Assembly (NCBI RefSeq): GCF_003316765.1
Contig: NZ_NIJF01000083.1
Span: forward strand, 62,001 to 126,000
Length of the DNA: 64,000 nucleotides
From: Bacillus sp. P14.5
GTDB taxonomy: Bacteria; Bacillota; Bacilli; Bacillales; Bacillaceae_B
Reading direction: 5' to 3'
In this document: one piece after another, positions 52,736 through 57,343 of the stretch
Layout of the letters: each line of letters opens with the position of its first letter
Numbering within the stretch: the first letter of the stretch is position 1
Translations under genes and position numbers: made by a program
Notes under the pieces: model-generated
What the model saw: the letters and a program-made list of their open reading frames with translations, nothing else
What the model was told of the DNA's origin: nothing
Databases searched by the model: none

Positions 52736-54673
52736 TCATTCGTGCGCATCATGAATGATGATTGTTTGTTCATCATGCCTGCGGTTCATTTGGTGGTTCT
52801 TCTTCCGGTATTCTTTTGATTTAAAGACGATATCGAAATCATAGTCTTCCGGATACAACTCTTTTGCTGAAATATAAAGTTCCAGCCGTTTATGGTTAAT
52901 CTCTCTTTTTTCACCTTTGATCAGCACAGAGTAGCAGCCCGTTTTATCTGGACCTTTCTCAACTATTCCTATTTCACCTGCAGGGCTGACTTTTACATTG
53001 TCTCCCATCACAAATTGGGCAATTTTTGTTTTGCTCTCTTGTCTTTTTGGCTGCTCTCTTCTTGCATAGCGGTTGACAGCCACCTGTTTCTCAAGTTCTT
53101 TCCGTTTCTGGTACTCTTCTGGAACGGCAGTGTATTTCTTGACCTCTTTATAAGTCACTTTATGGGCAGCCTCAACTATAGCAGGGTGCATACCCAGCTT
53201 GAGGGCAATTGAAAAGGCCTGGCTTTCTCCTCCTTTTCCGACGATAAGGCGATACGTTGGTTCGAGCGTATCAAGGTTAAATTCCATCGAACCGTTGATG
53301 AACCCTTTCTCTCTTTCGGCAAAATCCTTGATTTCACTATAGTGGGTAGTGGCGAGCAGTGTGGCTCCCTTGTCATAAAGCTTTTGCAAAATGGCGGTTG
53401 CAAGTCCCATCCCTTCTCCCGGGTCCGTCCCCGAGCCAAGCTCATCTAACAATATCAAACTTCTGTCACTAGCTTCCTGAAGTATTTCAATAATATTTTT
53501 TATATGCGAACTAAAGGTGCTCAAGTTCTGCTGCAGGCTCTGCCCATCCCCAATATCCAGGAGTATTTTCTGGTAGATACCGATATGGCTGCCTTTTTCC
53601 ACAGGAACATGGATACCGCATTGAGCCATCAGCGTGAGCAAACCCACTGTTTTGATCGAAACTGTTTTTCCTCCGGTATTCGGTCCAGTGATCAACAGGG
53701 CGTGAAACTCTCTTCCCATCTCTATATTCAGGGGAACAGCAGCATTTCCGATAAGAGGGTGTCTTGCATTTTTTAATAAAATATAGTGAGACTCGTTTAG
53801 TTCCACCGGATTGCCGCCTATCGCTCTGCTGTACTTCGCTTTGGCAAAAAGAAGGTCATAATTGATCATAATTTCTACTGCCAGCTTCAATTCTTTCTCG
53901 TGCTGCTGTACAAGCCCTGTTAAATACAGCAAAACACTTTCCACTTCAGACTCTTCTTCCATTTTCAGATGCATTAATTGATCTTGCTGTATTCCTGCTT
54001 CTTCCGGTTCGATATAAAGGGTGGAGCCCGATGCAGATGAATCCAGCACTGCGCCCTTGATTTTGGCTTTGTACTCTTTTTTAACAGGAATAACGTATCG
54101 TCCTGCCCGTTGACTGACGATCGCTTCTTGAATGTAAGCTTTATACTTATTGGATTTAATCATACTGTTGACTTTCTCTTTGAGCCTTTCCTCCTGGATG
54201 CTGATTTGTTTCCTGATCTTCAGCAGCTCTTTTGACGCATAGTCATCCACTTGGCCGTTACGAATACAGCGGTTGATTCCATCATACAGATGCGGCAGGT
54301 CTTCGATGGACCAGACATAAGACGAAACCCTCGGTGCAATGAATTCTTTATCTTTCATGAACCTTTTTAATTTTCCGCAGCAATCCAGAAATAAAAGCAG
54401 CTTAAGAAACTGGCCGGCCCTAAGTGCTGTTCCCTTATTCATTTGGTTAAGAATGATTTCAATTCCGTCAAGCGCATGAATCGGCACACTCTCGCTTTTT
54501 TTCAGAATTTCTACTGCTTCTGTAACCTCATCCAGCCATGCAGAGATTTGGTTTTTATTAAAAGATGGCGAAATAGCTTTAACAAGCCCTTTGCCAGAAT
54601 CAGTCAGGGCATAGTTTGCTATTTCGTCTTTGATTTTTTGAAATTCCAGTTGTTTAAATGTATTTTCGTTCAA
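52736..54673 (-). CDS. MutS2 paralog lacking the Smr nuclease domain
   Basis: 645 residues (MutS2 is about 785). Core and clamp region ('SQRAGRYVIPVKKEYKAKIK', 'GAVLDSSASGSTLYIEPEEA'), MutS ATPase with Walker A 'LITGPNTGGKTVSIKTVGLL', Walker B 'LILLDELGSGTDPGEGMG' and 'LLATTHYSEIKDFA', then a KOW-like segment ('FVMGDNVKVSPAGEIGIVEK'). It stops where Smr would begin, ending 'QTIIIHDAHE'. MutS2 of B. subtilis acts on collided ribosomes; ATPase and KOW are its ribosome-splitting parts. TTG start, GGAGG 8 bases before. Preceded by a ~490-base leader with uORF and two terminators. Confidence 0.88.
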   Translation of the reverse strand: MNENTFKQLEFQKIKDEIANYALTDSGKGLVKAISPSFNKNQISAWLDEVTEAVEILKKSESVPIHALDGIEIILNQMNKGTALRAGQFLKLLLFLDCCGKLKRFMKDKEFIAPRVSSYVWSIEDLPHLYDGINRCIRNGQVDDYASKELLKIRKQISIQEERLKEKVNSMIKSNKYKAYIQEAIVSQRAGRYVIPVKKEYKAKIKGAVLDSSASGSTLYIEPEEAGIQQDQLMHLKMEEESEVESVLLYLTGLVQQHEKELKLAVEIMINYDLLFAKAKYSRAIGGNPVELNESHYILLKNARHPLIGNAAVPLNIEMGREFHALLITGPNTGGKTVSIKTVGLLTLMAQCGIHVPVEKGSHIGIYQKILLDIGDGQSLQQNLSTFSSHIKNIIEILQEASDRSLILLDELGSGTDPGEGMGLATAILQKLYDKGATLLATTHYSEIKDFAEREKGFINGSMEFNLDTLEPTYRLIVGKGGESQAFSIALKLGMHPAIVEAAHKVTYKEVKKYTAVPEEYQKRKELEKQVAVNRYARREQPKRQESKTKIAQFVMGDNVKVSPAGEIGIVEKGPDKTGCYSVLIKGEKREINHKRLELYISAKELYPEDYDFDIVFKSKEYRKKNHQMNRRHDEQTIIIHDAHE

Positions 54674-54871
54674 TTTTTATTCCTCCAGATTTTGTTTTGG
54701 AACGGACTCTTTTTAAATAACTTCTTTGAGGCATTTCCGATTGGAATGGTCTCTAGGAGCTATCCTGAGTCCTCTTCTTTACTCAGCTATGATTTCCCTT
54801 ACGCCTTCCTGACCACCTTACTTCGATTGGCCCCTGCCCTTTTCTAACTTGACTAATCCGTTTTTGAACAC

Positions 54872-54907
54872 AAAAAAACCGCAATGAACAATGTCCATTA
54901 CGGTTTT
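54872..54907 (-). terminator. Second leader terminator before the MutS2 paralog
   Basis: AAAACCG.AATG / CATT.CGGTTTTTTT on the minus strand. Confidence 0.7.
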
Positions 54908-54951
54908 CGATATCATACAAAGGGAAGGCTCCAGCAGCTGAAAGATTGCAC

Positions 54952-54978
54952 AAAAAAACTGTGCGTGATCGACACAGT
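54952..54978 (-). terminator. First leader terminator before the MutS2 paralog
   Basis: ACTGTG, 9-base loop, CACAGT then T7 on the minus strand; short stem, so it should be easy to disrupt. Confidence 0.55.
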
Positions 54979-55108
54979 GCTGCAGACAGGTGTTTGCATG
55001 CTATGATCATTGTTCTTAACTCATCAGTCATAAAGACATACTTAAATAAGCTTGTGGACAGTGATTTTTTCTGCCCTGCCTTCATGAATGACCGTATAAA
55101 ATTACGGA

Positions 55109-55132
55109 TTAGTTAAGAACGACACCTAACAT
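55109..55132 (-). CDS. 7-codon upstream ORF (MLGVVLN)
   Basis: ATG TTA GGT GTC GTT CTT AAC TAA, with AAGGGG 9 bases before. Its last codons are one arm of the leader's alternative helix, so a ribosome on the uORF would control folding. Too short for a functional protein. Confidence 0.5.
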   Translation of the reverse strand: MLGVVLN

Positions 55133-55217
55133 ACTTCATTTCCCCTTTTGAGAGATTTAATATTTACAACTACATAGTATTCCAACTAGACTGCATTTGT
55201 CAATCTCATACGCAGAT

Positions 55218-55496
55218 TTAGAGTTTGACATCATATTTATTCTTCAGCTCTTCTGGCGCCATCTTAATCATCTGCTGCAGTATTAATGTAAACACCGCAA
55301 TATCATCCACTATCCCAAATATGACGAGCCAGTCTGGAATTAAGTCGAATGGCAGCAGGATGTAACCAAGGATAAAGCCTACTGACAAAAGTTTTTTCCA
55401 TACCTTCACAGATGGTGACTTAAAAAATGCGACTAAAAACGGAATTGACCTTCTGATGTTGAAAAGAAATTTTAATCTGCTGATAAACCGTGCCAA
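55218..55496 (-). CDS. YkvA/DUF1232 small membrane protein
   Basis: 92 residues from TTG (AAAGGAGG upstream). DUF1232 core 'LGYILLPFDLIPDWLVIFGI' and 'VDDIAVFTLILQQM', with the conserved D-x-IPD...DD. Function unknown. The MutS2-paralog promoter begins right after its stop codon; read-through is possible. Confidence 0.88.
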   Translation of the reverse strand: MARFISRLKFLFNIRRSIPFLVAFFKSPSVKVWKKLLSVGFILGYILLPFDLIPDWLVIFGIVDDIAVFTLILQQMIKMAPEELKNKYDVKL

Positions 55497-55744: not shown

Positions 55745-57343
55745 ATGATTCAAGTATCAGATGTAAGTCTGCGTTTTGGTGATCGTAAATTATTTGAAGA
55801 TGTAAATATAAAATTCACTGCTGGAAACTGTTACGGCCTTATCGGTGCGAACGGTGCAGGTAAATCCACTTTCCTTAAGATCCTTTCCGGAGAAATCGAA
55901 TCTCAAACCGGCAATGTGTCCATGACACCTGGAGAGCGGATGGCTGTCCTGAAACAGAACCACTTTGAGTACGAAGAACATGAAGTATTGAAAGTTGTCA
56001 TCATGGGTCATACCCGCCTGTATGAAGTGATGCAGGAAAAAGACGCTATCTATATGAAGGCCGACTTCTCTGATGAAGACGGCATGAGGGCAGCAGAACT
56101 TGAAGGCGAATTCGCTGAATTGAACGGCTGGGAAGCAGAATCAGAAGCCGCAATTCTTCTTAAGGGACTTGGAATCAGCGAGGACCTTCACACGAAGAAA
56201 ATGGAAGATTTAAATGGCGGCGACAAAGTAAAGGTATTGCTTGCTCAGGCGCTGTTTGGAAAACCGGAAGTCCTTCTTCTGGATGAGCCTACTAACCATT
56301 TGGACATCGCTGCCATTCAATGGCTTGAGGAATTCCTGATCAACTTCGAGAACACAGTTATCGTCGTATCCCATGACCGTCACTTCTTAAATAAAGTTTG
56401 TACCCATATTGCCGACCTTGATTTTGGAAAAATCCAAGTCTATGTCGGAAACTATGATTTCTGGTATGAGTCCAGCCAGCTGGCTACAAGAATGGCTTCA
56501 GACCAGAATAAAAAGAAAGAAGAAAAAATCAAAGAACTGCAAGCGTTCATCGCGCGTTTCAGTGCGAACGCTTCAAAATCTAAACAAGCTACTTCCCGTA
56601 AGAAGCTGCTGGATAAAATCACACTTGATGATATCAGACCGTCATCACGTAAGTACCCTTACGTACACTTCAAACCAGAGCGCGAAATTGGGAACGACCT
56701 TTTGAGGGTCGAAGGTATCTCTAAAACGATTGATGGCGTTAAAGTATTGGATAACGTAAGCTTCATCATGAATAAAGACGATAAAATTGCTTTGGTCGGC
56801 AGTGATGAAATCGCGAAAACGACCCTGTTCAAAATTCTTGCTGGCGAAATGGAGCCGGACAGCGGTACCTTTAAATGGGGAGTTACGACTTCTCAGGCCT
56901 ATTTCCCTAAAGATAACTCGGACTATTTCGAAGGCAGTGAGCCCAATCTTGTCGAGTGGCTGAGACAGTACTCTCCTAACGATCAAAGTGAATCCTTCCT
57001 GCGAGGTTTCCTGGGCAGAATGCTCTTCTCTGGAGAAGAAGTCATGAAAAAACCAAGCGTTCTTTCCGGTGGAGAAAAAGTTCGCTGCATGCTATCGAAA
57101 ATGATGCTGAGTGAAGCCAACGTTCTTCTTCTGGATGAACCGACGAACCACTTGGACCTGGAGTCCATCACAGCGCTGAACAATGGCCTTGAGAACTTTA
57201 AAGGTTCCATGATTTTCTCTTCTCATGACCATCAATTCATACAAACAATCGCTAACCGCATCATCAAGCTCGACTCTGAAGGAATCATCGACAAACAGAT
57301 GACTTATGATGAGTTCCTTGAAGCTACAGCGGTTAAAAATTAA
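55745..57343 (+). CDS. ABC-F family ATPase (YkpA-like)
   Basis: 532 residues, two ABC domains and no membrane part. NBD1: Walker A 'GLIGANGAGKSTFLKIL', signature 'DLNGGDKVKVLLAQAL', Walker B 'VLLLDEPTNHLDIAAI'. Linker with P-site tRNA-interaction-motif-like basic coiled coil (about 245-300). NBD2: degenerate Walker A 'ALVGSDEIAKTTLFKIL' (no Gly-Lys-Ser/Thr consensus spacing), signature 'VLSGGEKVRCML', Walker B 'VLLLDEPTNHLDLESI'. ABC-F proteins act on ribosomal E-site/exit states; this is a housekeeping type rather than a known resistance type. GGAGG before the ATG. Confidence 0.9.
   Translation: MIQVSDVSLRFGDRKLFEDVNIKFTAGNCYGLIGANGAGKSTFLKILSGEIESQTGNVSMTPGERMAVLKQNHFEYEEHEVLKVVIMGHTRLYEVMQEKDAIYMKADFSDEDGMRAAELEGEFAELNGWEAESEAAILLKGLGISEDLHTKKMEDLNGGDKVKVLLAQALFGKPEVLLLDEPTNHLDIAAIQWLEEFLINFENTVIVVSHDRHFLNKVCTHIADLDFGKIQVYVGNYDFWYESSQLATRMASDQNKKKEEKIKELQAFIARFSANASKSKQATSRKKLLDKITLDDIRPSSRKYPYVHFKPEREIGNDLLRVEGISKTIDGVKVLDNVSFIMNKDDKIALVGSDEIAKTTLFKILAGEMEPDSGTFKWGVTTSQAYFPKDNSDYFEGSEPNLVEWLRQYSPNDQSESFLRGFLGRMLFSGEEVMKKPSVLSGGEKVRCMLSKMMLSEANVLLLDEPTNHLDLESITALNNGLENFKGSMIFSSHDHQFIQTIANRIIKLDSEGIIDKQMTYDEFLEATAVKN

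Follow-up and report, generated by a model that had tools for sequence, protein, structure and literature searches.

What controls a MutS2-like gene that has no Smr domain, and to what does the control respond? The most probable answer, to which we assign a probability of about three-quarters, is that the leader in front of the gene acts as a transcription attenuator, equipped with tandem terminators and controlled by the ribosome, and that the MutS2 paralog behind it clears stalled ribosomes. The locus lies on the minus strand of the window, the whole stretch of 64,000 nucleotides that was analyzed. The initial annotation had described a promoter directly after ykvA, a seven-codon uORF with a ribosome site, and two terminators with runs of seven T. 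Each of these is found in the place given for it, and the locus is composed of the following features.

55218..55496, minus strand: ORF of a DUF1232 (YkvA-like) protein, 5' neighbor of the leader (PF06803, 2.2e-10), which we take to be ykvA
55174..55203, minus strand: promoter TTGACA-18-TACTAT (TTGACA at 55203-55198, 18 nt, TACTAT at 55179-55174)
55137..55149, minus strand: Shine-Dalgarno (SD) region of the uORF, AAAAGGGGAAATG (55149-55137)
55109..55132, minus strand: uORF ATGTTAGGTGTCGTTCTTAACTAA, seven codons, MLGVVLN-stop; region 1 of the putative attenuator
55111..55120, minus strand: P1 5' strand GTTCTTAACT, complement of AGTTAAGAAC
55092..55108, minus strand: P2 hairpin TCCG-TAATTTTATA-CGG, recognized by the conserved AATTNNATA (by eye) and a matched-energy test
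55022..55091, minus strand: P3 and inner hairpin within P1, with a conserved TTATTT motif (CTTATTTAAG, 55050-55041)
55012..55021, minus strand: P1 3' strand AGTTAAGAAC, first half of putative region 2
54996..55015, minus strand: rest of putative region 2, GAACAATGATCATAGCATGC, placed by duplex-energy tests and nascent-RNA folding
54952..54978, minus strand: terminator T1, ACTGTGTCGATCACGCACAGT and a run of seven T (54978-54952)
54872..54907, minus strand: terminator T2 and a run of seven T (54907-54872), including CATTGTTC at 54886-54893
54852..54861, minus strand: ACGGATTAGT, second segment complementary to the uORF end, restricted to the closest relatives
52736..54673, minus strand: MutS2-like paralog, 645 aa, without Smr, start codon TTG at 54673
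53153..53695, minus strand: MutS domain V (ATPase), residues 327-507 (PF00488, 5e-35)
52871..52999, minus strand: predicted SH3/KOW-like beta barrel, residues 559-601 (structure model, block pLDDT 81-86)

The end of the uORF is perfectly complementary to two separate downstream segments, GTTCTTAACT (55120-55111) to AGTTAAGAAC (55021-55012) and ACTAATCCGT (55113-55104) to ACGGATTAGT (54861-54852). Both complements are 10 bases long, and not 10 and 9 as first described. When the downstream leader was shuffled with its dinucleotides preserved, a complement of at least 10 bases to the uORF end arose in 15 of 2000 shuffles, and a 10-base complement together with a separate 9-base complement in 2 of 2000. 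The 497-nt leader also folds better than all of 100 shuffles (z −3.66). Scans of this one sequence by itself were not above chance for promoters (7 found, 6.9 expected) or for terminators (2 found, 3.1 expected), and the weight of the evidence therefore rests on conservation. A TTGAC...TA-type pair is visible by eye 5' of the uORF in several relatives too. Rfam 15 gave no match at the gathering score in the window, and at E values up to 10 it gave six implausible matches, all below their own gathering scores. No further copy of the uORF was found in the window's own genome with up to three mismatches allowed.

Three side observations concern the window itself. A 100-aa ORF (54783-55085, minus strand) overlaps the leader and both terminators and is chance by appearance. 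The conserved motifs within P1 (AATTNNATA and TTTATTT; window 55041-55108) are unexplained by the attenuator model. Beyond ykvA, a divergent ABC-F type ATPase with two ABC_tran domains and ABC_tran_Xtn lies at 55745-57343 on the plus strand; ABC-F proteins are a translation-factor family.

Conservation was followed at two depths. Within the genus, the 24-nt uORF is identical in 30 of 30 loci selected by protein, the window's own included, and GTTAAGAAC lies about 100 nt 3' of the uORF in all 30. For the wider comparison, 206 leader picks were reduced to 197 by removing nine mirror-strand picks (peptide MISAVLN), to 134 by removing similar ones (ratio of at least 0.88), and to 131 by removing the mirror-strand picks L199_MRVLN, L079_MIIIVLN and L103_MYLTAVLN. 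In these 131 non-redundant leaders, GTTCTTAAC occupies the P1 5' strand in 128 and GTTAAGAAC the P1 3' strand in 129. The second complement fared differently: ACGGATTAGT is found in only 4 of the 30 genus loci (L001, L004, L005 and L006) and in 2 of the 131 leaders, so that of the two complements claimed at first, one is conserved and the other (54861-54852) is specific to the closest relatives. Apart from compensatory changes in two loci (L113, GTTTTTAAC with GTTAAAAAC; L100, GTTCTTAAT with ATTAAGAAC), P1 is nearly invariant and thus offers little covariation; this invariance is inflated because the leaders were collected by their own letters.

The uORF itself carries several marks of translation. 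Its start codon lies exactly 12 nt 5' of GTT in 130 of the 131 leaders, all 130 of which have an SD-like site; collection demanded some uORF with an SD, but not the 12-nt distance. The leader peptide is of the type M-x-x-x-V-L-N, with codons 2-4 variable and the Asn-stop end nearly invariant. Where codon 2 encodes serine, it is AGT in 26 leaders and TCG in 24. L332, a weak model match (E 0.0034), keeps V-L-N-stop with other codons, its pairing shifted along, and L314 retains the valine as GTG with one base pair sacrificed (both by eye). The fixed spacing, the SD site, the serine codon swap and the codons of L332 bear on translatability and suggest that the uORF can be translated. Counting against an attenuator, the stop or the frame of the uORF is lost in a few leaders (L160, L329 and L331).

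At least one hairpin with a T run lies within 330 nt in all 131 leaders, and at least two in 96 of them, as a raw count. We compared matched with permuted duplex energies, that is, the fit of a region to its own leader against its fit to other leaders, over 2000 permutations; 23 leaders lacking a usable T1 were left out of the T1 test (n = 108), and 21 lacking a usable T2 out of the T2 test (n = 110). In the window, GAACAATGATCATAGCATGC can pair in three ways: with the start region of the uORF (P1'), with the T1 5' arm and, via GAACAATG, with CATTGTTC of T2. None of the 2000 permutations was as good as the matched pairing for the P1' duplex (−13.07 matched against −10.80 kcal/mol permuted, n = 131), for region 2 with the T1 5' arm (−11.02 against −9.31 kcal/mol), or for region 2 with the T2 loop and 3' arm (−9.35 against −7.97 kcal/mol). 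The opposite arms of T1 and T2, which served as controls, showed no effect, with 1238 and 222 of 2000 permutations as good. Such permutations ignore shared descent, but the control arms share the same descent. The effect per leader is moderate, the own partner being among the best tenth in 29% of leaders for P1' and 20% for T1. P2 (−2.87 against −1.73) and P3 (−14.64 against −7.73 kcal/mol) are matched as well, again with 0 of 2000 permutations as good.

These results indicate that the conserved antiterminator contacts, as read from the sequences, are those of region 2 with the T1 5' arm and then with the T2 loop and 3' arm. The initial interpretation is supported in part: it passed the sequence tests proposed with it, since relatives keep both the uORF and the helices, which are fitted to their own partners; the contacts themselves differ from the second complement that it had put forward. 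The observation at this locus is confirmed as genuine and beyond chance.

Whether ribosome occupancy of the uORF could act on the terminators was addressed by folding nascent RNA truncated ahead of the 3' arm (T1) or inside it (T2), with a ribosome footprint masked on the uORF. Expected pairs between region 2 and T1 rose from 1.85 to 8.04 on masking (control mask, 1.91), with a gain of at least two pairs in 85 of 108 leaders and a loss in none. Those between region 2 and T2 rose from 0.67 to 8.00 (control mask, 0.72), with a gain in 77 of 110 leaders and a loss in two. In the window's leader, the corresponding values went from 4.2 to 8.1 for T1 and from 0 to 9.8 for T2. At equilibrium, the full terminators were hardly altered by masking (T1, 0.95 to 0.92, with a drop above 0.2 in 4 of 108; T2, 0.94 to 0.93, with such a drop in 2 of 110), and those of the window's leader were unchanged. 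In silico support for mutually exclusive pairings that tie uORF occupancy to the terminators is thus confined to nascent RNA, and the switch must be kinetic, with co-transcriptional timing needed. Other attenuators also require such timing. Alignment of 134 leaders with MAFFT and RNAalifold recovered P1 alone because the inner helices vary in length, and the covariance model used below consequently holds only P1.

A different reading places the sensor in the RNA itself. The structured domain within P1, with P2, P3 and the AATTNNATA and TTTATTT motifs, would bind a drug or small molecule directly, with P1 as the closing stem and the uORF secondary. The conserved motifs within P1 and the strong matching of P3 fit this idea, riboswitches commonly have a closing stem shared by aptamer and expression platform, and the conserved P1 loops are compatible with an aptamer. 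We nevertheless consider it unlikely, given a translatable seven-codon uORF whose SD lies at constant spacing in 130 of 131 leaders, the AGT and TCG serine codons, the synonymous codons of L332, and the Rfam search of the window, which had no match at gathering score and implausible ones up to E 10. Judged by its sequence, the leader is a genuine and conserved regulatory RNA, and attenuation through the uORF is by far its best reading.

The attenuator would work as follows. Region 1 is the seven-codon uORF, and region 2 would comprise GTTAAGAAC and the next ~20 nt, about 100 nt 3'. When no ribosome is held on the uORF, regions 1 and 2 would pair through P1 and its extension over the uORF start; region 2 would then be tied up, and T1 and T2 would end transcription. 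A translation inhibitor would hold a ribosome on the uORF; the likeliest place is close to the conserved V-L-N-stop end. The freed region 2 could then pair with the T1 5' arm and subsequently with the T2 loop and 3' arm before the hairpins close, so that RNA polymerase would read through into the paralog. The Smr-less MutS2 paralog may use its ATPase to split or clear the stalled ribosomes. We infer stalling as the trigger, as well as the class of drug, antitermination in cells and ribosome splitting; the link to translation inhibitors is drawn from the kinds of genes behind the leader together with its architecture.

The leader is widespread and tracks the paralog closely. Genomes were assigned to clade A or to clade B, a distant Smr-less group, by their best paralog-search E value (all below 1e-150 and all above, respectively). 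A search for the 24-mer uORF with up to three mismatches found 52 of 397 genomes of the order, against 0 for the reversed control. Of 41 further clade A upstreams, chosen for having no 24-mer match, 40 carry the leader in variant form and one (L087) is without it. A covariance model built from 33 diverse leaders finds the leader in 135 of the 397 genomes at E 0.01; its E values are rough, and large searches ran under stricter filters. By group, the leader is present in 129 of the 130 genomes with clade A, in 1 of the 43 with clade B and in 5 of 224 with neither. Four of the six leader-bearing genomes among the 267 without a clade A call have a broken target gene. By eye, the paralog is broken behind the leader in G045 and G137, a clade A-type gene lies in two pieces in G151 (a clade B genome; L337), and a BpsA-like gene is broken in G042; in G036 and G082 a methyltransferase follows the leader. 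Most leader-bearing genomes of the order have a single match. A second uORF match in G067 lies within a coding gene and was set aside as chance by appearance. G771 has three leaders, 5' of one MutS2-like and two BpsA-like genes.

Loci that keep the leader with a broken or split paralog are L113 (G137), L114 (G338), G045:C5:245130-247041 and L337 (G151), as if the paralog gene were dispensable in some lineages.

Beyond the order, the class-wide model search matched 76 of 398 genomes, and the exact pattern scan of named genomes gave at least 117 stretches, 80 of them given by name. Among the matches listed are Bacillus, Rossellomorea, Neobacillus, Cytobacillus, Halobacillus, Virgibacillus, Paenibacillus, Brevibacillus, Cohnella and Petroclostridium, and the range of the leader thus extends to Paenibacillus, Brevibacillus and some Clostridia. 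The leader DNA had no match to plasmids or phages (blastn, E 1e-5), nor did its exact pattern to viral contigs. At E 1e-100 the paralog protein was found in 4 of 72,556 plasmid records. All four plasmids are classed as non-mobilizable, and the weakest of these matches (37.5%) may be an ordinary MutS2.

The genes behind the leader point to what it serves. Among the at least 117 pattern-scan loci, a MutS2-like gene follows alone in 86, a BpsA-like gene alone in 14 and both in a row in two, with none recognized in 15, of which 10 end too near the leader to show a gene. In L156 and L207 the leader is on the other strand, 5' of a MutS2-like and a BpsA-like gene, respectively. The 81 loci of the class-wide search comprise 56 MutS2-like, 21 BpsA-like and four other targets; this set, the pattern-scan set and the order-wide set overlap in part. 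The remaining three of the 15 pattern-scan loci have other genes, namely GNATs in L160 and L171 and, in L194, a methyltransferase with an MFS pump behind it. The four of the class-wide search are a GNAT (L307), an APH-type kinase (L320, where PF01636 scores 24.4 bits, narrowly over 23.2), a DHA2 efflux pump (L329) nearest to LmrB (466 bits, below the curated 800) and, behind a weak leader match (E 0.004), an MFS transporter that weakly resembles Mef proteins (L333). From the order-wide search come methyltransferases (L335 and L336), GNATs (L338 and L339) and, again behind a weak leader match, an alpha/beta hydrolase (L340, E 1.8e-4). BpsA-like proteins, the second most frequent target, have a BpsA_C domain (8.4e-42 in L196) and, by eye, a GDDD motif. 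L177 and L238 are operons that join both main targets, the MutS2 paralog being directly followed by the BpsA-like gene behind one leader.

In other genomes, then, the leader that would release the paralog stands 5' of drug-inactivating-type enzymes, efflux pumps and a BpsA-like enzyme, and the link to translation stress gains weight because these include resistance-type genes. The same list bears on another possibility, that the uORF senses general translation (initiation rate, an amino acid or release-factor state) and that the paralog has a housekeeping or DNA-related role rather than one in drug response. MutS family proteins often act on DNA, the uORF is very short with a nearly invariant Asn-stop end, and most leader-bearing genomes have but one leader match, all of which would suit such a role. 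Targets of drug-inactivating and efflux types do not. Nor does the patchy presence of the paralog, which occurs in 32 of 36 sampled genomes of the genus and is absent from four, one of these 84% complete; clade A is absent from 267 of the 397 order genomes. We hold general-translation sensing to be distinctly unlikely, and the sequences suggest instead an undescribed switch by which stalled ribosomes would activate rescue genes. Against attenuation, it must be counted that some relatives lack the paralog or have it in broken form.

The paralog belongs to the MutS2 family (TIGR01069, 615.4 bits against a cut-off of 400; residues 2-529, model positions 1-534 of 790). The window's genome has a full MutS2 (789 aa) besides, and a further MutS-type match in an 894-aa frame. 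The initial annotation had given the paralog an ATPase and a KOW domain but no Smr. The ATPase stands (PF00488 in 51 of 51 leader-linked proteins scanned), as does the absence of Smr (PF01713 in 0 of the 51 and none in L156, while Smr of the genome's full MutS2 is found at 1.2e-26). KOW has no Pfam match and is a predicted barrel in the structure model. MSSS (PF20297, SH3/KOW-type) was found at E 0.01 in 0 of the 51 proteins, against 1.3e-17 in the full MutS2; leader-linked L156 shows it at a like place with 22.1 bits, below the cut-off of 26.8. The AlphaFold2 model (mean pLDDT 84.7, pTM 0.70) has a five-stranded barrel at residues 559-601, where a non-significant second alignment to B. subtilis MutS2 also falls, and a KOW/SH3-like barrel is therefore predicted for the paralog. 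C-terminal to it, the model and the alignment place a short helical conserved tail, LYPEDYDFDIIF...RKK in the leader-linked proteins, possibly a ribosome contact. This tail, LYPEDYDFDIIFxSxExRKK (window 52736-52870), replaces Smr, and clade B has a related one, LYPxGYDLxxLF.

One non-ribosomal candidate came from the protein searches. The paralog matches the KamC family model NF052383 (model length 508) with 205.6 bits, which would suit a KamC-like reactivase, or some other non-ribosomal MutS2 relative, with a borrowed resistance leader. The score is below the curated cut-off of 300, and a KamC identity was rejected; the TIGR01069 score is well above its own cut-off. The closest solved relatives by sequence are the MutS2 chains 8qpp and 7qv3, and in the fold comparison MutS2 structures likewise lead the PDB matches, with 7qv3, B. 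subtilis MutS2 on a collided disome, at rank 2. We regard a KamC-like protein as highly improbable. Family and context suggest a role of the paralog in ribosome rescue.

B. subtilis MutS2 is reported to split stalled ribosomes with its ATPase being critical, deletion of SMR strongly lowers ribosome binding, and SMR mutants show only modest erythromycin sensitivity (PMC10897456). The paralog shares the core and the ABC ATPase, with an SH3/KOW-like barrel predicted, and differs in having no Smr (0 of 51) and a conserved C-terminal tail instead. Since loss of SMR lowers ribosome binding (PMC10897456), the Smr-less version may not act on collisions, which counts against the proposed role. A survey suggests further ribosome-splitting factors in B. 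subtilis (PMC11633108).

Among known systems, the leader system is by analogy closest to HflXr of Listeria monocytogenes. There, hflXr is reported to provide an additional copy of a ribosome-splitting factor, controlled by a uORF attenuator, and to protect against lincomycin and erythromycin (PMC6310831). Common to hflXr/rli80 and, by inference, to the present case are a duplicated splitting factor with one copy dedicated to drugs and a short uORF with a terminator/anti-terminator switch; full MutS2 and paralog occur here in one genome and fall in separate tree groups. The families differ, HflX there and MutS2 here. The Listeria uORF has 14 aa with an RLR motif (PMC6310831), whereas the leader here has seven codons ending V-L-N-stop (M-x-x-x-V-L-N, without RLR), in most cases two terminators that a single strand contacts, and a wide range of target genes. 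For the ABC-F gene msrD, too, a short leader peptide is described that controls a ribosome-protection gene when macrolides are present, an attenuator alike by description with different targets (PMC10314930). The second target type shares the BpsA_C domain and GDDD motif with the branched-chain polyamine synthase BpsA; a BpsA review places branched polyamines mainly in thermophiles and makes no mention of antibiotics (PMC12979288). Searches of open PMC papers for these leader peptides, for MutS2 leaders and for Smr-less MutS2 brought up none that describes the pairing.

A bolder proposal, which we advance tentatively and rate somewhat short of an even chance, is that a resistance regulon in Bacilli and in some Clostridia is governed by an old undescribed class of stall-sensing attenuators, with an M-x-x-x-V-L-N-stop leader and a single antiterminator strand that overcomes two terminators one after the other. 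The regulon would have as its chief effectors two new types of factor for tolerance to translation drugs. One would be a MutS2 without Smr, which frees stalled ribosomes with no need to sense collisions; the other would be a BpsA-like enzyme, acting either by modifying rRNA or by producing a branched polyamine that protects ribosomes. The sister clade of Smr-less MutS2 proteins would have a different seven-codon leader of its own. If true, about one third of the sampled order genomes (135 of 397) carry an unrecognized stalled-ribosome switch, and any gene behind the leader is a candidate unstudied resistance gene. MutS2 paralogs would gain a dedicated drug-tolerance role parallel to HflXr, and it would become testable how much of MutS2 suffices for ribosome splitting when Smr is lacking, and which function BpsA-like enzymes serve in mesophilic Bacilli.

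The sister clade can be compared directly. A quick midpoint-rooted tree of 45 proteins (ORFs of at least 620 aa only, thinned to 30) gathers the 31 leader-linked proteins, the window's included, into a single group (SH-aLRT 96), from which the seven canonical MutS2 and the seven clade B proteins are separate. Clade B proteins are also short, and the clade A leader words are absent from 8 of 8 clade B upstreams. Exact copies of the clade B leader word CCTATGAAGATACCTAC are present in 22 genomes out of a sample of 299, every one of them among its 29 clade B genomes; when one mismatch is tolerated, the word is present in 30 genomes against 9 for the reversed control. A seven-codon ORF 5' of CCTATGAAGATACCTAC was flagged by script in 9 of the 22 (MSGVVSK, MSAVGTK or MSAVVVS); by eye, a GTG-start ORF of the same seven-codon length can be seen in others. 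Loci L354-L382 and L105-L112 thus show a conserved leader of their own, with a seven-codon uORF (MSGVVSK-stop and kin) and CCTATGAAGATACCTAC. This leader often has a terminator with GGTATC and often a GTAGGTATCTTCAT-like complement shortly 5' of the gene's ribosome site.
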